Part shown: in pieces, positions 2,904-42,590 of the stretch
Layout: each line of letters starts with the position of its first letter
Position numbering within the stretch: the first letter of the stretch is position 1
Source of the DNA: an uncultured Bacteroidota bacterium
GTDB lineage: Bacteria > Bacteroidota > Bacteroidia > AKYH767-A > JABDAW01
Assembly: GCA_903844645.1 (NCBI GenBank)
Contig: CAIMUP010000117.1
Coordinates: 1-42,634, forward strand
DNA length: 42,634 nucleotides
Direction of reading: 5' to 3'
The notes under the pieces: generated by a model
The model's input: the letters and a program-made list of their open reading frames with translations, nothing else
What the model was told of the DNA's origin: nothing
Database searches by the model: none
Position numbers and translations under genes: made by a program

Positions 2904-2941
2904 AGCGGGGCTCCAAAACAGAAATCCAACCTTTTCTACAT

Positions 2942-3109
2942 GGAATTCGGAAGCTCCGGATTGGAATCCGGAAGCTCCGGATTGGTATCCGGAACCTCCG
3001 GCATGGAATTCGGAAGCTCCGGATTGGAATCCGGAACCCCCGGATTGGAATCCGGAACCTCCGGCATGGAATTCGGAAACTCCGAATTGGAATCAGAAAG
3101 AGTGAAAAT
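2942..3109. repeat. 21-bp tandem array R2
   Basis: Eight copies start at 2942, 2963, 2984, 3005, 3026, 3047, 3068 and 3089, all exactly 21 bp apart, with core GGAATCCGGAAGCTCCGG. Each typical unit contains a strong dyad, AATCCGGA-AGC-TCCGGATT. Variants alternate GGAATT/GGAATC and AGCTCC/ACCTCC. It fills the gap between the GT2 start and the acetyl-CoA synthetase stop. Open frames across it encode 7-residue repeats only because 21 is divisible by three. Confidence 0.95.
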
Positions 3110-3140
3110 AAAATTCCAAACCTATTTTTGTAGTTTAATA

Positions 3141-5357: not shown

Positions 5358-5524
5358 CAGCCTTATGAATAGCAAAGAAAATCTGGATCTGTACGGAGGC
5401 AATATATGTCTCGGAACCCAAGGCGGTCATTCCGAGGCACGATGCGTATAGATTCCATCATACCCTCCATTTCTGCAAAGAAGTTTGTATGCCGCCAAAG
5501 CGGGATGCCAAATTCTTGGAAGAA

Positions 5525-5748
5525 GATGTCATTCACCCAGAGGTGTTCGGCAAGATCCTTAAAGATGGTGTCAATCACCTCGGGGAGTTCGACAAGATCC
5601 TTAAAGAAGATGTCATTCACCCAGAGGTGTTCGACAAGATCCTTTAAGATGATGTCAATCACCTCGGGGAGTTCGACAAGATCCTTTAAGATGATGTCAA
5701 TCACCTCGGGGAGTTCGACAAGATCCTTAAGGATGGTGTCAATCACCC
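5525..5748. repeat. 42-bp (2 x 21) tandem array R3
   Basis: The landmark TC in GTCAATCACC/GTCATTCACC recurs at 5529, 5571, 5613, 5655, 5697 and 5739, exactly 42 bp apart. Two subtypes are interleaved (ATTCACCCAGAGGTG and AATCACCTCGGGGAG). The half-units TCGACAAGATCC and ATGTCAATCACC lie 21 bp apart and share roughly half their bases, so the unit may be a doubled 21-mer. The array sits between divergent genes. Both strands are open across it; the minus frame 5363-5746 would give a 14-residue repeat (ILKDLVELPEVID), which I judge unlikely to be real. Confidence 0.92.
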
Positions 5749-5845
5749 CTGTTCGTATGATATGTTCTTCGAAGAATAGGTCAGGCTATTCAGTAGCAGT
5801 AATCATTAAATAAAAAATATTAACAAACTATAAAAAGAGAAAATC

Positions 5846-10243: not shown

Positions 10244-10280
10244 ACTCACAAAGGCATCAGGAATTAAGATTCTGCCGTAA

Positions 10281-10406
10281 CCAAATCAGTTTGGGGTCAA
10301 ACCAAATCAGTTTGGGGTCAAACCAAATCAGTTTGGGGTCAAACCAAATCGGTTTGGGGTCAAACCAAATCGGTTTGGGGTCAAACCAAATCAGTTAGGG
10401 GTATAA
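10281..10406. repeat. 21-bp tandem array R4
   Basis: Six copies start at 10281, 10302, 10323, 10344, 10365 and 10386, exactly 21 bp apart, core CCAAATCAGTTTGGGGTC (A/G variation at the eighth base). Dyad CCAAA-TCAG-TTTGG in each unit. It lies between same-direction genes, after porW/sprE and before bactofilin. The rest of this gap (10407-10550) shows nothing else. Confidence 0.95.
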
Positions 10407-13331: not shown

Positions 13332-13527
13332 CCATTCACAGGCAGATTTTGCGGCAACACAGACATTCATATACTGTTTCAAAACCAATTCCTTTTTTTC
13401 ATAGCCGTGAAAACGGTGATTTTTACTAATACCATTCTTAATAGACTCATTTTATTATTATTTTATTACGTTACTATCTGTTTGGTAAGGTGAAATCGGG
13501 CTGTAAGGAATCCCAATAAAGCCAAAA

Positions 13528-13765
13528 CATACGTTATGGCTACTAAAACATAAGTTATTGTTGCTATAACATAAGTTATTGTTGCTATAACATAAGTTAT
13601 TGTTGTTATAACATAAGTTATTGTCGCCATAACATAAGTTATTGTTGTTATAACATAAGTTATTGTTGCTATAACATAAGTTTTTGTTGTTATAACATAA
13701 GTTATTGTTGCTATAACATAAGTTATTGTTGCTATAACATAAGTTATTGTCGCCATAACCATGGT
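13528..13765. repeat. 21-bp tandem array R5
   Basis: Eleven copies start at 13528 and every 21 bp to 13738, with core CATAAGTTATTGTTGC, then a partial one at the right end. Substitutions cluster at GTTGCT/GTTGTT/GTCGCC. Dyad ATAAC-ATAA-GTTAT spans unit junctions. It lies between convergent genes. The flanks 13332-13527 and 13766-13907 show no gene or other structure. Confidence 0.96.
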
Positions 13766-21161: not shown

Positions 21162-21352
21162 ATTATCGGTCTTCTTTGTGGATTAAGACAATTATAGTTA
21201 ATGAAAGTTTAAGCTATTCTAAATTCATCCCGCCAAAACTACAAATCCTCCCCAATAAAAATCCCTCCTCCAAAGCCCACCCATCCCTCCCTTTCCCAAA
21301 ACCTACACCCCTAAATGTTAAAATTTTAACACTAATTTAACAAAAAACCGTG

Positions 21353-21562
21353 GTAAACGCATTCCGTAGTTAGGTAAATGCATTCCGTAGTAAGGTAAAT
21401 GGGTTCCGTACTGTGGTGAATGGGTTCTGTACTATGGTGAATGGGTTCTGTAGTAAGGTGAATGGGTTCTGTACTATGGTGAATGGATTCTGTACTGTGG
21501 TGAATGGGTTCTGTAGTGTGGTGAATGGGTTCTGTACTAATGTGAATGCCTTCGATACTGAG
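21353..21562. repeat. 21-bp tandem array R6
   Basis: Ten copies start at 21353 and every 21 bp to 21542, with core GTGAATGGGTTCTGTACT. Early copies read GTAAATGCATTCCGTAGT, later ones GTGAATGGGTTCTGTA with CTATG/GTAAG/CTGTG ends. No strong internal dyad beyond GTAC. It lies between minus-strand genes. The rest of the gap (21162-21352 and 21563-21826) shows no recognisable gene. Confidence 0.95.
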
Positions 21563-23804: not shown

Positions 23805-23910
23805 GCGGAGGGTTAGGTTCGTTAGTTCAATCTTTATTACGGATGAAAAATGAAAAGGGTGGGGCGAGAGGGAATAATTTTTTTGGGGATGATGAAAAGG
23901 GATGCAAATT

Positions 23911-24052
23911 TCCTGACCCAAACCTGATATTTTGTGACCCGAAACCGATATTTTGTGACCCGAACCTGATATTTCCTGACCCGAAACCCAAATTTCCTGA
24001 CCCGAAATTCTTTTGCTCTGGAGAGAAAATCAGGTTCGGGTCAGGAAATTTG
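23911..24052. repeat. 21-bp tandem array R7 with inverted end copy
   Basis: Five copies aligned on GACCC at 23915, 23936, 23957, 23978 and 23999, exactly 21 bp apart; core GATATTTTGTGACCCGAA or with TTTCCTGACCCG. At 24029-24051 a further copy is inverted (ATCAGGTTCGGGTCAGGAAA), so the array ends could fold into a large hairpin. It sits about 100 bp upstream of the sigma factor start. No gene is seen elsewhere in 23805-24248. Confidence 0.93.
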
Positions 24053-26156: not shown

Positions 26157-26175
26157 CACTCCTTATATATAGGCA
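26157..26175 (-). repeat. TGCCTATATATAAGGAGTG motif, inverted copy
   Basis: This 19-bp sequence (minus strand) recurs at 30983-31001 on the plus strand and, with small changes, at 37173-37191. The latter two directly precede arrays R8 and R10. No array follows this copy. Confidence 0.6.
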
Positions 26176-26222: not shown

Positions 26223-26230
26223 TATATTTG
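26223..26230 (+). promoter_or_regulatory. -7 box of DUF177-rpmF operon
   Basis: TATATTTG matches TAnnTTTG, 17 bp before the ATG. Confidence 0.6.
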
Positions 26231-26247: not shown

Positions 26248-26781
26248 ATGACAGCCAATAAAGATTATAGCATCCAGTTCGCTACCTTAGCCACCGGGAT
26301 TCATCGTTTCCGGTTCTCGGTCAATGGTTATTTCTTTGAATTGATGAAGAATGAAACCATCACCGAATGCGATATTCAGGTAGCCGTTACTCTTAATAAA
26401 CAAGAAACGATGCTGCTGCTCGATTTCTCGATTAACGGCACCGTGAACCTCCCCTGCGACCGATGCAGCGATTATTTCGATTTGATAATAAGCGGAACCA
26501 ACAGGCTCGTCGTGAAGGAAGGCAGCGATTATCAGGAAGAATCGGAAGATGTCATTGTCATCCCTCGGAATGAACACGACCTCGATTTGAGCCAATATAT
26601 CTATGAATATATCCTCCTGTTAATCCCCATGAAAGTGGAACATCCGTTCGATGCTGCGGGCAATTCGCAATGCAATGATGACCTGCTCAAACTGCTCGAA
26701 AACTATCAGCCCAAAGAGAAAAAAGAGGGCGATGAAAACACGATAGACCCCCGTTGGGAACAATTAAAAGGTTTGAAGTAA
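26248..26781 (+). CDS. DUF177 / YceD-family protein
   Basis: 177 residues of the YceD family, which is nearly always encoded just before rpmF and is linked to rRNA/ribosome maturation. Conserved NLPCDRCSDYFDLIISG near 70-86 carries the Cys pair; EESEDVIVIPRNEHDLDLSQ and YIYEYILLLIPMKVEH follow, as in the family. The C-terminus ends with DPRWEQLKGLK, typical for members. It is the first gene of the L32/fatty-acid cluster. Confidence 0.92.
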   Translation: MTANKDYSIQFATLATGIHRFRFSVNGYFFELMKNETITECDIQVAVTLNKQETMLLLDFSINGTVNLPCDRCSDYFDLIISGTNRLVVKEGSDYQEESEDVIVIPRNEHDLDLSQYIYEYILLLIPMKVEHPFDAAGNSQCNDDLLKLLENYQPKEKKEGDENTIDPRWEQLKGLK

Positions 26782-30932: not shown

Positions 30933-30982
30933 TTTACGCTTCCTCACCGGTTTTTCTCCCGTCAGGAGTCAAACACAAATAT

Positions 30983-31062
30983 TGCCTATATATAAGGAGT
31001 GAAAGGATGACCATCCTCGACGCTGGGATGACCATCCTTTTATATGGGGAATGACCATTTAT
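30983..31062. repeat. Short 21-bp array R8 with TATATAAGGAGTG leader
   Basis: GACCAT landmarks at 31009, 31030 and 31053 (spacing 21, then 23). Core GGATGACCATCC with the dyad GGATG-AC-CATCC. Leader TGCCTATATATAAGGAGTG at 30983-31001. Both core and leader recur at array R10, 6.2 kb away, showing that array families can be shared between loci. It lies between the convergent genes accC and MiaE. Confidence 0.8.
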
Positions 31063-31201
31063 TTCACAAAAAAGACGAATTATTTTGGGATATAGGTAAT
31101 TCGTCCAAACCGATTGTCCATGAATCCTGAAAAGTTATTCTTCTTTCAGGTTCATAAATCTGGATAAGAAAAATCGTAACCTGAATAAAATTCCCTATCC
31201 T

Positions 31202-31783
31202 CTACCCGTGCATCGTTTCTCGTTTGCCATAATTGGCGATGATGGAGGCTTCGTAATCGAGGAATTCCTGCCACCGTTTTTCGACGTCCTCGCCTTCGGC
31301 ATATTTTCTGGCAAAGCCGATAAAAAGAGTGTAATGATTGGCTTCCGAAATCATTAATTCGCGGTAGAATTCGGCAAGATCAGAGTCCTGAATATTCTCT
31401 GAAAGAATCCTGAACCGTTCGCAGCTACGGGCTTCGATCATCGCTCCGAATAGAAGGCGGTCTATCAACACAATGTGGCGTTTATGCCCCTTCCGAACGA
31501 AGTTATACAGCTCTATCACGTACTCATCTTTGCGTTCTTTGCCGAGCACCCAGCCGCGTTCCAATATCTTGGCATGCACCATCGCGAAGTGCTGCAATTC
31601 CTCCTGCGCAAGGGCTATCATCGCCTCCACCAAGTCAGAATAATTGCCGAACGAAACAATCATCGAGATGGCATTGGTAGCCGCTTTCTGCTCGCAATAT
31701 GCGTGGTCTGTCAATATCTCTTCAAGGTTGCCATTGGCAATATTTGCCCATCGCGGGTCGGTCGCTAATTTTAATCCAAGCAT
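31202..31783 (-). CDS. miaE: tRNA-(ms2io6A)-hydroxylase MiaE
   Basis: A 193-residue ferritin-like diiron enzyme that hydroxylates the isopentenyl group of ms2i6A37 in tRNAs. The metal ligands are visible as DHAYCEQKA, LAQEELQHFAMVHA, ARSCERF and SEANHYTLFIGFA, evenly spaced in a four-helix bundle. Substrate tRNAs would need MiaA/MiaB, not encoded here. Minus strand, divergent from the GT-C/TPR gene. Confidence 0.93.
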   Translation of the reverse strand: MLGLKLATDPRWANIANGNLEEILTDHAYCEQKAATNAISMIVSFGNYSDLVEAMIALAQEELQHFAMVHAKILERGWVLGKERKDEYVIELYNFVRKGHKRHIVLIDRLLFGAMIEARSCERFRILSENIQDSDLAEFYRELMISEANHYTLFIGFARKYAEGEDVEKRWQEFLDYEASIIANYGKRETMHG

Positions 31784-31822
31784 CGTTTTATGTTCTTATT
31801 TAATCCAAATTTTATTCGGCTG

Positions 31823-31830
31823 CAAAGATA
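31823..31830 (-). promoter_or_regulatory. -7 box of miaE promoter
   Basis: TATCTTTG on the minus strand, 40 bp before the ATG. Confidence 0.5.
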
Positions 31831-31890
31831 TTTTTTCATGGAATAATGTCAGAAGAAATCAGGAAGGTGCGGGGTTAATCATTTTTAATA

Positions 31891-31898
31891 TAAATTTG
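31891..31898 (+). promoter_or_regulatory. -7 box of GT-C/TPR gene
   Basis: TAAATTTG matches TAnnTTTG, 51 bp before the chosen ATG. Confidence 0.5.
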
Positions 31899-31948
31899 CG
31901 GCGCATCGAAGTATGCACCTTCATAAGAACCAACAAACCGGAATTAGC

Positions 31949-33976
31949 ATGAGCAAACAACCAAACAAAAGCAAGCCCGTTCAACGAACCAATAAAACCG
32001 CTACCAACCCCGATGCCCTGCAACGATTAAAGGTTTCATTAGGGATGATTATCGCGGTATTCGCGTTCCTTCTCTATGCCCAAAGTATAGGCTACAGCTA
32101 CACGCTCGATGACAATGCCGCGATAAAAAACAATACCGTTACCCGGCAAGGAATTGCGGGGATTCCGGCTATCGTTTCGCATAATTACTGGTACGGAATC
32201 AACGATTTGAAAGGAACAGAATACAGACCGCTATCCATGGTTTTATTCGCTATCGAATGGCAACTGTTTCCAGAGAATCCCCACGTCAATCGCTTTATCA
32301 ATGTCTTGTTGTATGCCTTGTCATGCTGGTTTTTATTTCAGTTGCTCTGCCGGTTATTCCCCAATCAAAACCTGGTGATTCCCTTTGTATGCAGCCTGTT
32401 GTATGTATCGCATCCTATCCATTCCGAGGTCGTTGACAGTATCAAAAGCCGCGACGATATTCTCTGCTTTCTCTTTTTGATAATCGCTACTTTGTATGTC
32501 ATTAAAGCTATCGAAACAAACTCCCTTATCAAAAGTATCGTAGTAGGAATGTTCTATCTCCTTGCCCTGTTATCCAAGGAAACAGCTATCTCCTTCCTAT
32601 TGATCATACCTATGTTGATGTATGTTTTCACGAAGGCTACGCTGAAGAATATTGCATCGGTATTTATTATTTTAATCCTCTTTACGGGCGTGTATTTTAT
32701 CTTCCGAACGCTCGCCTTAGAATCCATTACCCATGCCCCCGATAGTTCGCCATATAATAACTCCTTGTTTGCTGCGAAAGACTTTATCTCCCGCGAAGCC
32801 ACCGCCTTTTATATCCTGCTGCGCTATCTTTTTTTAATGATACTCCCCCACCCTTTGACACACGATTATTCCTTCAATCAAATACCATTACAAACCCTGA
32901 AGGACCCTATGGCAATCCTCGGAATCGTGGTGTACATAGCGATAGGAGCCTACGCAATCATCACCATCAAGAACAAAAATATCCTCGCATTCGCCATTCT
33001 GTTCTTCCTTATTTCCTTAGCTCCGGTAGCCAATGTCTTCCGGTTGATAGGATCCACGATGGCAGAACGATTCCTATACATTCCATCTCTCGGATATTGT
33101 TTGATTGTCGCAATACTACTCGCAAAATATACCAAGACAGAGGTTATCAAAAGCCGATTTAACACCGTCCCACAATTCATCACGATGAATTCAATGCTCT
33201 TCGCCATCGTCTTCGCCATTGTGGGATTATACTCCATCAAAACCTTTGCCCGTAGCCAAGATTGGAAGAACAATTCCGAACTATATTCCGCTGATGCCGC
33301 CATATCCACCTTCAGTTCCCGCGCCCATGTACACAATGCCGTTACCATTTACGAAGACCAATATCCATTAGAAAAGAATGAAGCCGCCAAACAAATCCTC
33401 CTCGACAAAGCCATCTCCGAATTCAAGAAAGCCCTCGAAATATTCCCTGAATACCACCTCACCTACCAAGGATTAGGGCAAGTGTACATCGAAAAGGGAG
33501 ACTACAAAAATGCCATCTTCTACTTACAAAAAATGGTCGCCAAATTCACCGACGGCAGACTCTCCGCCTACCTCCTCCTAAACACCTGCTACGAAAAAAC
33601 CCACCAACTCGACCTCCAAATAGCCTCCGATGACTCCGTAATAAGCTACCAACCCACCAACACCTTCGCACACATCAACAAAGGCACCGCCCTCGGACAA
33701 CAAGGCAAATACCTCGAAGCCGTAACCGAATTCGAAACCGCCCTCACCATCAACCCCAACGAAATATCCGCCTACAAAGACCTCGGCGTAGCATACGGCT
33801 TCCTAAAACAATACCCCAAAGCCATCGCCAACCTCAACAAAGCCGCCACCATGGACCCCAACGACCCACAAGTCCCCAACTTTATGGGCATCACCTACAA
33901 CTACATGGGCGACACCATCCACGCCAAAGAATGCTTCGACAAGGCAAACAAAATGACCGCCTCAACCAAGAAATAA
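31949..33976 (+). CDS. GT-C-like membrane protein with C-terminal TPR repeats
   Basis: 675 residues from MSKQPNKSKPV. About ten membrane helices span 30-430, with lumenal acidic motifs YTLDDNAAI near 60 and HPIHSEVVDSIKSRDD near 156, the layout of TMTC/O-mannosyltransferase-like GT-C enzymes that use polyprenyl-linked sugars. The tail, about 450-675, is TPR repeats (EYHLTYQGLGQVYIEKGDYK, NTFAHINKGTALGQQGKYLE, NEISAYKDLGVAYGFLKQYP). It could glycosylate exported proteins. From about 33400 to the stop the coding strand becomes C-rich and G-poor with many C-ending codons, unlike its first half. Confidence 0.85.
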   Translation: MSKQPNKSKPVQRTNKTATNPDALQRLKVSLGMIIAVFAFLLYAQSIGYSYTLDDNAAIKNNTVTRQGIAGIPAIVSHNYWYGINDLKGTEYRPLSMVLFAIEWQLFPENPHVNRFINVLLYALSCWFLFQLLCRLFPNQNLVIPFVCSLLYVSHPIHSEVVDSIKSRDDILCFLFLIIATLYVIKAIETNSLIKSIVVGMFYLLALLSKETAISFLLIIPMLMYVFTKATLKNIASVFIILILFTGVYFIFRTLALESITHAPDSSPYNNSLFAAKDFISREATAFYILLRYLFLMILPHPLTHDYSFNQIPLQTLKDPMAILGIVVYIAIGAYAIITIKNKNILAFAILFFLISLAPVANVFRLIGSTMAERFLYIPSLGYCLIVAILLAKYTKTEVIKSRFNTVPQFITMNSMLFAIVFAIVGLYSIKTFARSQDWKNNSELYSADAAISTFSSRAHVHNAVTIYEDQYPLEKNEAAKQILLDKAISEFKKALEIFPEYHLTYQGLGQVYIEKGDYKNAIFYLQKMVAKFTDGRLSAYLLLNTCYEKTHQLDLQIASDDSVISYQPTNTFAHINKGTALGQQGKYLEAVTEFETALTINPNEISAYKDLGVAYGFLKQYPKAIANLNKAATMDPNDPQVPNFMGITYNYMGDTIHAKECFDKANKMTASTKK

Positions 33977-34000
33977 CGCCCCATTATGGCGCGTCCCCTC

Positions 34001-34100
34001 CCGCCTCCCCACCAAAGTCCCCATCAACAGGCGGTAGCGGTCAGGCTGTTCGGGGGTTCCGTTCCCGCCTCCCCCACGAAAAGTCCCCACCAAAAGGCGG
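34001..34100. repeat. GC-rich direct repeat with CCGCCT/AGGCGG hairpins
   Basis: Two similar 34-36-bp copies at 34001-34034 and 34065-34100. Each begins CCGCCT and ends AGGCGG around a C-rich GTCCCC interior, so each can fold. Just before array R9 and past the GT-C/TPR gene stop, possibly terminator-like. Confidence 0.7.
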
Positions 34101-34153
34101 TAACCAAGCCCCTACCATCCCTCGCGCAGTGGAACCCAATAGTCCCCCAAACC

Positions 34154-34445
34154 CAAATCCCGACGCTAATAATCCAAATCCCGACGCTGATAATCCAAGT
34201 CCCGACGATGATAATCCAAGTCCCGACGCTAATAATCCAAGTCCCGACGATAATAATCCAAGTCCCGACGCTGATAATCCAAGTCCCGACGATGATAATC
34301 CAAGTCCCGACGATGATAATCCAAGTCCCAACGATGATAATCCAAGTCCCGACGATGATAATCCAAGTCCCGACGATGAAAATCCAAGTCCCGACGATGA
34401 TAATCCAAGTCCCGACGATGAAAATCCAAAACTCAACGCTGAAAT
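34154..34445. repeat. 21-bp tandem array R9
   Basis: Fourteen copies aligned on CGACG (CAACG in two) at 34161 and every 21 bp to 34434, core AATCCAAGTCCCGACGATG. Variation is mostly GATGAT/GCTGAT/GCTAAT/GATGAA after CGAC. No strong internal dyad. All frames on both strands are largely open, one reading NPSPDDD repeats, but they lack start context and are taken as by-products. Convergent gap. Confidence 0.96.
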
Positions 34446-34520
34446 TCCGAAATCCAGGAGGTGAATTCAGCAACCTGTCAAATTACTTGACAAAAATAAA
34501 TAGTTCGCAATTGAGATTCC

Positions 34521-34556
34521 AAAAAAATCCCCCCGATGCAATATCGAAGGGATTCC
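34521..34556 (-). terminator. Terminator of T9SS type B gene
   Basis: Minus strand: AATCCCTTCGAT, loop ATTG, CATCGGGGGGATTTTTTT. Stem AATCCC/GGGATT with inner CGAT/ATCG and a T-run, 25 bp past the stop. Confidence 0.75.
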
Positions 34557-34581
34557 TTTTGAGAATTATGAAAGGGATAAA

Positions 34582-37023
34582 TTATCGAATCAAGAAAACC
34601 GTCCCGTTCCGTTCCACTTTCTTACCATTCTTCAAGATCGCTTTCATCACCCAAACGTAGGTATCCTGTTTCATAAGGTTGCCATCAGGCGTTGTGCCGA
34701 GCCATTGGTTGCTGACATCCGTAGTCTCAAAAAGTAACTCTCCCCAACGGTTGAAAACAGTCATCGAATACTCGGTAATAGCATTGCTATATGCCCCGAA
34801 ACCAGGGTTTAAATCCCATCCCGGATGGAAAGAAGTAGGCACAAAGATGGAATAATCCTCGGTAAAAGTTACCCTCGCTGTGTTAGAATCGGGGCAACCC
34901 TCGGAATTGTATGCCACCAAAGTAATGAAGTACGACCCGGGTCCTTCAGGAAACAGATGGTCGAACGAATGTTGGTCGCTACGCGATAATTCTCCATCGC
35001 CAAAAGTCCAGAAATAGGTCGTCGCACCAGTAGAAAGATTAATCAGATTGACGTTGTTAGGCTCCAGATAATTAAATCCGAAATGGGCAATCGGCAGCGG
35101 GAAAACATAGATCGTAATACTGTCTCTCCCGGTTTGAACATGGCAGGTGTCGGTAACGGCAACGGAATAAGTCTGGGTGCTGGATGGCGACGGATTAACA
35201 ACCGTAGAATCGCCAAGATTGTCGCTCCAAGTGTAAGTCAACGGACCTGTTCCGCCAATAGCTCTAACGATAAGCTGGGTAGATTGCCCTGCACAAATAT
35301 CGTAGCCTGTAATATTCGGCACGATGCTCGGTTCATCGAGAATGGTGATGGTGGTCGTGCTTGGCAGGCAGGTATTTGTCAGGGTCAGGATGATGGTTTC
35401 GGTAGGTTCATTCACGCCATCGAAATATGGAGCAATGGTAATATTTGTCGAAGCTTGGTTTGCAGGAATGGTAACCATGCCCGGCAGCATCGGATAATCA
35501 ATCCCGTTGGTAGCCGTTCCGGTAACATCATAAGTAATCAGGGTCGGGGTTGTTTGTATCACATTCAACGAAAATACCACCGTAGCCGTACCGCATCCTT
35601 CGGTAACAGAGTTATTAAACGAAGCGATGCTTTCTGGCGAAGTAACGATCACCGTTACCGAACCGATGGCTGTGTTTCCGCAAATATCTGTAATGGTCAA
35701 AGTATAAGTAGTCGTGGCAGATGGTGAAACCGTAACGGCACTATCTGTACTAGCACCGTTATCCCAAGCATAAGTGTAATGACCGTAGCCTCCAGTTGCG
35801 GTTCCTAACAAAGGAACAGGAATGTTTGGGCAAACAGTAGTATCGCCAATAGGAGTTGCTACTAATTGTATGGCATCCACATTCCTTATCCAAAGAGAAA
35901 TACTATCATTAGAAGAGGTGCAAAGGGTTACATTCTGAATATTAAGAACAACGCTTTCGATAGGCTCGGAGATACCATCGAAGTATGGGGAAATGATAAT
36001 CGAATCCGCCGTTTGTCCGGCAGCAATCACGATGCTATCCGGAATAAAAGGATAATCCACACCATTAGTCGCCGTTCCCTGAACCTGAAAATGAATCACC
36101 GTAGCGATAGATTGTGCTTGCGGCAACGTGAAGACAAATGCTCCATTCGTACAGCCTTCTACCGCCATGGTATCTACCGTGGTATTGGTGTTATGGATGT
36201 TGCTATGCACCGTAACCGAGCCTCCCGTAAAGCTGCCAGCCTCGAGGAATACACCAGAATCAAACACACAATCGCCTGCATCGGCAATCGCTAATTTAAT
36301 ATGATACGTAAGGCAAGGAGTTACCCAATGTTTCGCAGTAAGCTGGGTCGTGAAGGCATCATATTCTACAGTGGTTCCGGTGCAATTATCTATGTAGTAA
36401 GCGCAATTCATGCAAGGACCTGTCGCGGCATTCGGACAGTAATAATTACCGTTGTTAATAGTTCCGATAGATACTGGAGTAGAGGTATTCGGCACTAACG
36501 CAATATTCGGTGTACCGGTAATCCCCGGTCCGCTGATAAAAAATGCAAATACATCATTAAAAATAGTCCCTACGTATTCCGGATATTCTTCCGAAGCAAA
36601 TACATACCGAAATTTCACTGTGTCCGATGTCGGAACGAAATCAAAATCTATAATACAAGCATCATGCGTCGTCTGTCCGCAAATGGCAGTTAATTGGGCA
36701 TCGCCATTGGTATTGTTACACGATCCTTGGCAGCAATTATTGTTCGGTCCGGGCGCATTCCAAATCTTCCCCGTAGTCATCAGCACTCCTCCCGCGAAGC
36801 CGATATTGGAAGTAGAACCATTAAATTGCCCTATCGCCCCTGTGTCGCCAGTATAGACGATATTACTCACCGTAACTCCCGTTCCGAGCAGCACTTGTTG
36901 AATCAATTGGGCGGGGGTAAGCGTATTACTTACCGATAATTGCGCCTTGATAGTCGTTGTCGAATAGCTAAGGAAAACCAATACTATCAGGGCTTTCATC
37001 GTCTTTTGTAATTTTTTAATCAT
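34582..37023 (-). CDS. Secreted protein, choice-of-anchor L and PKD domains, T9SS type B sorting
   Basis: 813 residues from MIKKLQKTMKAL. Signal peptide about 1-28 (ending IKAQ). Choice-of-anchor L domain about 35-265 (IVYTGDTGAIGQFNGSTSNI, GFAGGVLMTTG, FVFASEEYPEY-like, FNDVFAFFISGPGITG). Then two Calx-beta-like stretches (QGTATNGVDYPFIPDSIVIA; TGTATNGIDYPMLPGMVTIP), Ig-like segments between, a PKD-like domain near 675-720 (TTYFWTFGDGELSRSDQHSF) and a CHU_C/gliding-motility type B C-terminal sorting domain about 730-813 (FVPTSFHPGWDLNPGF, MTVFNRWGELLFET). It should cross the outer membrane by T9SS and stay at the surface or be released. Promoter shares the ahcY element. Confidence 0.9.
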   Translation of the reverse strand: MIKKLQKTMKALIVLVFLSYSTTTIKAQLSVSNTLTPAQLIQQVLLGTGVTVSNIVYTGDTGAIGQFNGSTSNIGFAGGVLMTTGKIWNAPGPNNNCCQGSCNNTNGDAQLTAICGQTTHDACIIDFDFVPTSDTVKFRYVFASEEYPEYVGTIFNDVFAFFISGPGITGTPNIALVPNTSTPVSIGTINNGNYYCPNAATGPCMNCAYYIDNCTGTTVEYDAFTTQLTAKHWVTPCLTYHIKLAIADAGDCVFDSGVFLEAGSFTGGSVTVHSNIHNTNTTVDTMAVEGCTNGAFVFTLPQAQSIATVIHFQVQGTATNGVDYPFIPDSIVIAAGQTADSIIISPYFDGISEPIESVVLNIQNVTLCTSSNDSISLWIRNVDAIQLVATPIGDTTVCPNIPVPLLGTATGGYGHYTYAWDNGASTDSAVTVSPSATTTYTLTITDICGNTAIGSVTVIVTSPESIASFNNSVTEGCGTATVVFSLNVIQTTPTLITYDVTGTATNGIDYPMLPGMVTIPANQASTNITIAPYFDGVNEPTETIILTLTNTCLPSTTTITILDEPSIVPNITGYDICAGQSTQLIVRAIGGTGPLTYTWSDNLGDSTVVNPSPSSTQTYSVAVTDTCHVQTGRDSITIYVFPLPIAHFGFNYLEPNNVNLINLSTGATTYFWTFGDGELSRSDQHSFDHLFPEGPGSYFITLVAYNSEGCPDSNTARVTFTEDYSIFVPTSFHPGWDLNPGFGAYSNAITEYSMTVFNRWGELLFETTDVSNQWLGTTPDGNLMKQDTYVWVMKAILKNGKKVERNGTVFLIR

Positions 37024-37080
37024 GGTATATAATGTTGTAAAATGGTTCGTTGTTTGGAGCTTGTACTTAATTTGAGGGTA

Positions 37081-37112
37081 CAAAGTTATAACAAATTTCG
37101 GAGACCACCAAA
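37081..37112 (-). promoter_or_regulatory. T9SS type B gene promoter with TTTGGTGGTCTCC element
   Basis: Minus strand: TTTG at 37112-37109, 20-bp spacer, TAACTTTG at 37088-37081, 57 bp before the ATG. TTTGGTGGTCTCC at 37112-37100 equals the ahcY copy, base for base and in spacing. Confidence 0.7.
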
Positions 37113-37172
37113 TTTCTGTAAAGATTTTTTTCTCCATCACCCCCCACTATTTTTTTATTTAATACCATTTAC

Positions 37173-37331
37173 ACCTATTATATAAGGAGTGTTTTTCCTG
37201 ATATTCGATGCTGGGACGACCATACTAAGCCCTGGGATGACCATCCTAAGCTCTGGGACGACCATCCTAAGCCCTGGGATGACCATCCTAAGCTCTGGGA
37301 CGACCATCATAAGCTCTGGGACGACCATTTA
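37173..37331. repeat. 21-bp tandem array R10 with leader
   Basis: GACCAT landmarks at 37218, 37239, 37260, 37281, 37302 and 37323, exactly 21 bp apart; core GGGATGACCATCCTAAG with GAT/GAC and GCCCT/GCTCT variants. Dyad GGATG-AC-CATCC. Leader CACCTATTATATAAGGAGTG ends at 37191, as before R8. It lies between the minus-strand T9SS gene and the acyltransferase gene; the rest of 37024-37361 holds only the promoter. Confidence 0.95.
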
Positions 37332-42364: not shown

Positions 42365-42422
42365 AAGAATTTGTACAATTTATCGAATGAATCCTAAAAG
42401 GTTTTTCTCCTTTCTATCATTT

Positions 42423-42590
42423 ACTCAAAAGTTTTGGGTGTGTACTCAAAAGTTTTGGGTGTGTACTCAAAAGTTTTGGGTGTGTACTCAAAAGTTTTGG
42501 GTGTGTACTCAAAAGTTTTGGGCGTGTACTCAAAAGTTTTGGGTGTGTACTCAAAAGTTTTGAGTGTGTACTCAAAAGTTTTGAGTGGAC
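42423..42590. repeat. 21-bp tandem array R12
   Basis: Eight copies start at 42423 and every 21 bp to 42570, with core ACTCAAAAGTTTTGGGTG. The last two read GAGT, making a perfect dyad ACTCAAAA-G-TTTTGAGT; others have the weaker CAAAA-G-TTTTG. It lies upstream of the T9SS type A gene. An open frame reading GVYSKVL repeats has no start context and is discounted. Confidence 0.96.

Follow-up and report, generated by a model that had tools for sequence, protein, structure and literature searches.

The short leader that precedes two of the 21-bp tandem arrays described here is most likely an element lying upstream of promoters rather than a seed from which arrays grow, as far as can be judged from sequence. 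We consider it probable, though well short of certain, that the leader is a dispersed promoter-upstream site and that the arrays form a separate layer of minisatellites which is occasionally copied between intergenic sites. The number of leader copies, their placement with respect to arrays, genes and promoters, and the restriction to the genus could be observed directly. The two arrays, R8 and R10, are found in a stretch of 42,634 nucleotides (the window), which corresponds to C117 among the 143 contigs of a Bacteroidia genome of 3.84 Mb. This genome is a MAG assembly, and arrays terminate many of its contigs. Tandem arrays were called with TRF, R8 falling below the TRF threshold, and gene edges were taken from simple home-made gene calls.

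The R8 and R10 loci

The R8 leader (CCTATATATAAGGAGTG, 30985..31001, plus strand) lies 53 bp after the accC stop codon, and its gene side lacks a -7 box. It is followed by array R8 (31005..31060, plus strand), about 2.5 units of 21 bp with the core GGATGACCATCC, and by a 3' tail (31114..31166), a terminator-like hairpin repeat which is common to the loci L017 and L262. The R10 leader (CTATTATATAAGGAGTG, 37175..37191, plus strand) precedes array R10 (37211..37328, plus strand), in which TRF finds 5.6 units with a period of 21. Within the window the 13-mer TATATAAGGAGTG is present at 30989(+), 37179(+) and 26157(-); the R8 leader (30984-31001) and the inverted leader at 26157 have the longer GCCTATATATAAGGAGTG in common, and the left half of the R10 leader differs (CTATTATATAAGGAGTG). 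The core GGATGACCATCC starts at 31005, 31026, 37235 and 37277, and one further copy has a mismatch.

The earlier note had claimed that these two arrays, 6.2 kb apart, share both leader and unit, and this was confirmed: in the 60 bp after the leader the R8/R10 unit match reaches a local score of 44, which none of 5000 shuffles attained, and R8 scores at most 20 against any other leader flank. The flanks beyond leader and unit are not shared. The third leader copy, inverted and without an array, was likewise located at 26157. R8 and R10 appear to descend from a single stretch of leader and unit. At the orthologous sites in genome G001 synteny is broken, and the flanks are too diverged for an empty site or target-site duplication to be recognised. 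The tail sequence CCATGAATCCTGAAA is found exactly three times in the genome, always after a leader-bearing array; with just three true copies it was rejected as a frequent array end. Dispersed hairpin families, e.g., CCTGACGGGAGAAAAACC and AAGCATCCTGACAGGCAATCGCC, occur in intergenic DNA genome-wide, with an example in the window at 30944-30970.

The leader motif and its position relative to promoters

Exact copies of TATATAAGGAGTG number 34 in the leader's own genome and 0 for the reversed control, and allowing up to three mismatches gives 28 leaders, compared with 1 in a Markov control. By repeat number the leader tops all non-array 14-mers. In the consensus, A-rich DNA precedes CCTATATATAAGGAGTG, which is quasi-palindromic and better conserved in its right half, the half fixed by the search. 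TATATAAGGAGTG is present 10 and 6 times in two sister species of the genus; a genome from another genus of the same family contains 2 leader copies, neither adjoining arrays, and more distant relatives have almost none. Extended forms of the leader are species-specific, with 36 bp common to 4 loci in G002 and about 30 bp in several G001 loci. A survey of 392 genomes of the phylum gave 23 copies of the leader 16-mer in the own genome and at most three elsewhere, and multiple copies only within the own genus. As far as sampled, the leader is confined to its own genus, and we rejected the idea of a phylum-wide element. Most matches in Mucilaginibacter share one common context which reads as coding, and the remaining matches in the collection look like scattered single ones. 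A search of Rfam gave no match for the leader, and a Shine-Dalgarno sequence (AAGGAG) of a small ORF was discarded as an explanation since a consistent start codon downstream is absent.

In Flavobacterium, CCTATATATAAGGAGTG and close variants lie beside terminator hairpins at L098, L115, L128, L143, L149, L156, L169, L171 and L187, several of them near contig ends and possibly close to rRNA operons; at L128 and L187 the hairpin is flanked by inverted copies. These sites resemble ours in having the same 17-mer in an intergenic position next to terminator hairpins, but the sampled genomes have at most three copies each and no adjoining 21-bp arrays.

Nineteen of the 33 leader copies lie upstream of a divergent gene start, with the leader facing away from the gene edge. 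The Bacteroidota -7 box TANNTTTG is found at a distance of 20-92 bp on the gene side of 16/33 copies and on the array side of 1/33, compared with 9.6% of random intergenic points; with near-duplicates removed the figures are 20/48 and 1/48. The offset from leader to -7 box is 44-47 bp in 9 of 26 cases, sister species included (scan p=0.0005, from few independent loci), and this excess recurs in the sister species. Helical phasing of the offsets was not significant (p about 0.06). Array edges are separated from the -7 box by a median of 131 bp. The leader is not itself the -7 promoter box, a possibility ruled out by finding TANNTTTG separately. In the window, the gene at 26248(+) has its -7 box TATATTTG (26223..26230, plus strand) 53 bp from the third leader copy (26157..26173, minus strand), which is placed as its upstream element, and the gene 5' of the R10 leader has its -7 box TAACTTTG (37081..37088, minus strand) 90 bp from that leader. 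Among the observations that count against a promoter-upstream element are these: five leader copies, R8 included, lie directly 3' of a stop codon, and a recognisable -7 box is present at only about half of the copies. An association with genes for secreted proteins, first suggested by eye, gave no significant enrichment (8/19 leaders vs 87/264, p=0.45).

Class-I activator sites lie near -60, and by analogy the position of the leader would match about that of such a site. The arrangement resembles Bacteroidota -33/-7 promoters with upstream activator sites in that leader and -7 box seem to keep a preferred spacing; it differs in that the leader is not the -7 box and that its regulator is putative.

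The 21-bp arrays and their relation to the leader

The array statistics cover 1.45 of 3.84 Mb (~38%), part of the contigs having been picked for holding leaders. This DNA contains 325 arrays with a period of 21 or multiples, a density of ~0.22 per kb or one array per 4-5 kb, and nearly all units are different. Exact multiples of 21 account for 464 of the 484 TRF period rows, and in the first 1.10 Mb arrays make up about 4% of the bases. They are mostly intergenic. At least 7 net dyad pairs were found in 10.5% of the 21-bp units (0.9% of shuffles) and in 26% of the 42-bp units (3% of shuffles); A is not in excess over T. In the gap C13:42678-42887, which is conserved with a sister species, both species have a 21-bp array and the units are unrelated. 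Our literature search found no report of genome-wide 21-bp intergenic arrays in Bacteroidota. The window follows the pattern seen throughout the genome, with arrays of period 21 (or 42, 63) and unrelated units in most long gaps, at 3-140, 2939-3123, 5520-5749, 10279-10402, 13526-13759, 21352-21548, 23905-24007, 34153-34429 and 42422-42587.

A genome-wide search for the leader, as the earlier note had proposed, does show that the arrays beside perfect leaders always lie on the same side. Of 17 perfect 17-mers, 14 are accompanied by an array on the GGAGTG side within 160 bp, or 15 with R8 counted in, and the opposite side is free of arrays in every case; for leaders with at most three mismatches there are 23 arrays within 120 bp on the GGAGTG side and 5 on the other. 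Most leader copies in the sister species also have a 3' array. The fixed side is explained by the leader sitting at the promoter (gene) side of its gap, which is free of arrays: where gaps are full of arrays and the leader is upstream of a promoter such a side is expected, and orientation to the array is confounded with orientation to the gene edge.

The leader does not predict an array, because intergenic gaps of at least 400 bp hold one at equal rates with a leader (17/19) and without (187/217). Arrays adjoin the leader mainly since nearly every long gap holds a 21-bp array. The exact leader adjoins only 23 of 302 arrays, leaving 279 without it, and the distance from leader to array start varies from 3 to over 100 bp. 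A further Bacteroidetes MAG, SZAS-61 (G450; L310, L312, L313), has a few long 21-bp arrays and lacks the leader family, which we also count against a leader that seeds arrays. Of the earlier idea that a leader with one unit is copied and then amplified, the kinship of R8 and R10 and of leader arrays among themselves stands, and the role of the leader as a seed is not supported.

Probable copying between intergenic sites and the alternative explanations

R8 and R10 had been taken as the only related arrays, a statement that fails outside the window. Genome-wide, 29 array pairs agree at 18 or more of 21 positions, compared with 0 such pairs in the shuffled null, and three arrays of the window (13526, 23905 and 34153) are related to arrays on other contigs. 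The array at 34153-34429 is 94% identical over 235 bp to C14:77613-77853, with one flank at 91% over 148 bp. The arrays C2:11157-11375 and C24:5764-5986 show 96% identity across 219 bp and have flanks that are unrelated; this pair is apparently an array copied without its surroundings. A 22-kb contig (G000:C134) has the same leader and array at both ends (L030, L315) in inverted orientation. The 23 leader-bearing arrays among the 302 give 6 related pairs where 0.62 are expected (p=0.0004), five of them in one family and the sixth being R8/R10. Flanks are shared by 102 pairs with unrelated arrays, and arrays by 49 pairs with unrelated flanks; from this independent assortment we infer that arrays or flanks are likely copied between intergenic sites. 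The homology for this may be provided by short sequences that flank both sites, the leader being one candidate.

The locus L012 shares -186..+15 with L005 (88%) and -6..+75 with L019 (95%), the other side being unrelated in each case. It is a mosaic of two pieces joined at the leader, where both breakpoints fall. Neither this mosaic nor the excess of related pairs among leader-bearing arrays would be predicted for a plain binding site. Between L017 and L262 the leader side is 83% identical and a 91-bp tail, which R8 also has, 98%, and the arrays are entirely different. One can imagine the leader as the 5' end, or a recombination joint, of a mobile or exchangeable cassette of leader, array and tail, at which arrays are inserted or swapped; the mosaic, the kinship among leader arrays, the species-specific extended leaders and the leader and tail common to three loci with different arrays all speak for it. 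We nevertheless find it unlikely, because arrays are not enriched in leader-bearing gaps of equal length, most arrays (279/302) have no exact leader, their far ends have no inverted leader, the array start is at no fixed distance from the leader and the genome has only a partial match to a Y1 transposase. A related proposal makes the leader the point at which recombination swaps or copies whole 21-bp-phased arrays between intergenic sites, so that promoters of this genus would possess exchangeable upstream arrays of operator-like repeats two helical turns apart; this is speculative and we give it little credence. That R8 and R10 came from a single ordinary duplication of a local segment and reflect no general rule fits their short distance, the highly significant unit match and the leaderless dispersed array pairs throughout the genome; the unshared flanks outside leader and unit, and an R8 tail belonging to another family, make it quite unlikely.

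Among known systems the closest in appearance is BrickBuilt of Porphyromonas gingivalis, a MITE with a 23-bp minisatellite, 19 copies, a leader, a tail and terminal inverted repeats (PMC4596501). Here too an intergenic minisatellite in a member of the Bacteroidota has a dispersed leader beside it, and a tail is present at some copies. BrickBuilt has one 23-bp unit, whereas here there are hundreds of arrays with differing 21-bp units, most pairs being unrelated, and a leader at a minority of them; the common tail is at three loci and absent from most copies. Terminal inverted repeats were not found, and no inverted leader lies within 800 bp except at one self-palindromic site. A MITE of this type is highly improbable. 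A REP element moved by a RAYT/Y1 transposase was rejected, as no intact PF01797 is present and the one match covers model positions 5-84 of 121; a CRISPR array with its leader was rejected too, the units being head-to-tail and spacers absent. The tandem repeats of the archaeal Borg elements are pervasive, fast-evolving and independently arising, many of them intergenic, with A-rich units (PMC9879509). The arrays described here are similarly pervasive, with fast turnover and many in intergenic positions; they differ in the fixed period of 21 bp and multiples, in showing no A excess over T and in lying on a bacterial chromosome.

The explanation we prefer, a promoter-upstream leader and a separate layer of arrays, can be put together as follows. 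The leader CCTATATATAAGGAGTG sits mostly 30-90 bp and often 44-47 bp upstream of a -7 box whose promoter is directed away from the leader, and would be bound by a putative regulator. The arrays would be independent genome-wide minisatellites which fill the intergenic space beyond a promoter or terminator, with fast turnover of units, a period of two helical turns and an over-representation of palindromic units; they may grow in 21-bp steps through slippage or unequal exchange. Copying of arrays and flanks would probably take place by recombination at short common flanks, for example the leader and terminator repeats. R8/R10 would be one such copy, the R8 stretch of leader and unit now lying between convergent genes without a promoter.

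These findings correct the tempting reading of the leader as an array seed. Hundreds of arrays with differing units and one exact period imply either a mechanism which generates them or a selective constraint tied to the helix, and the independent assortment of arrays and flanks, together with a promoter-linked motif at the gene-side border, makes both options testable.
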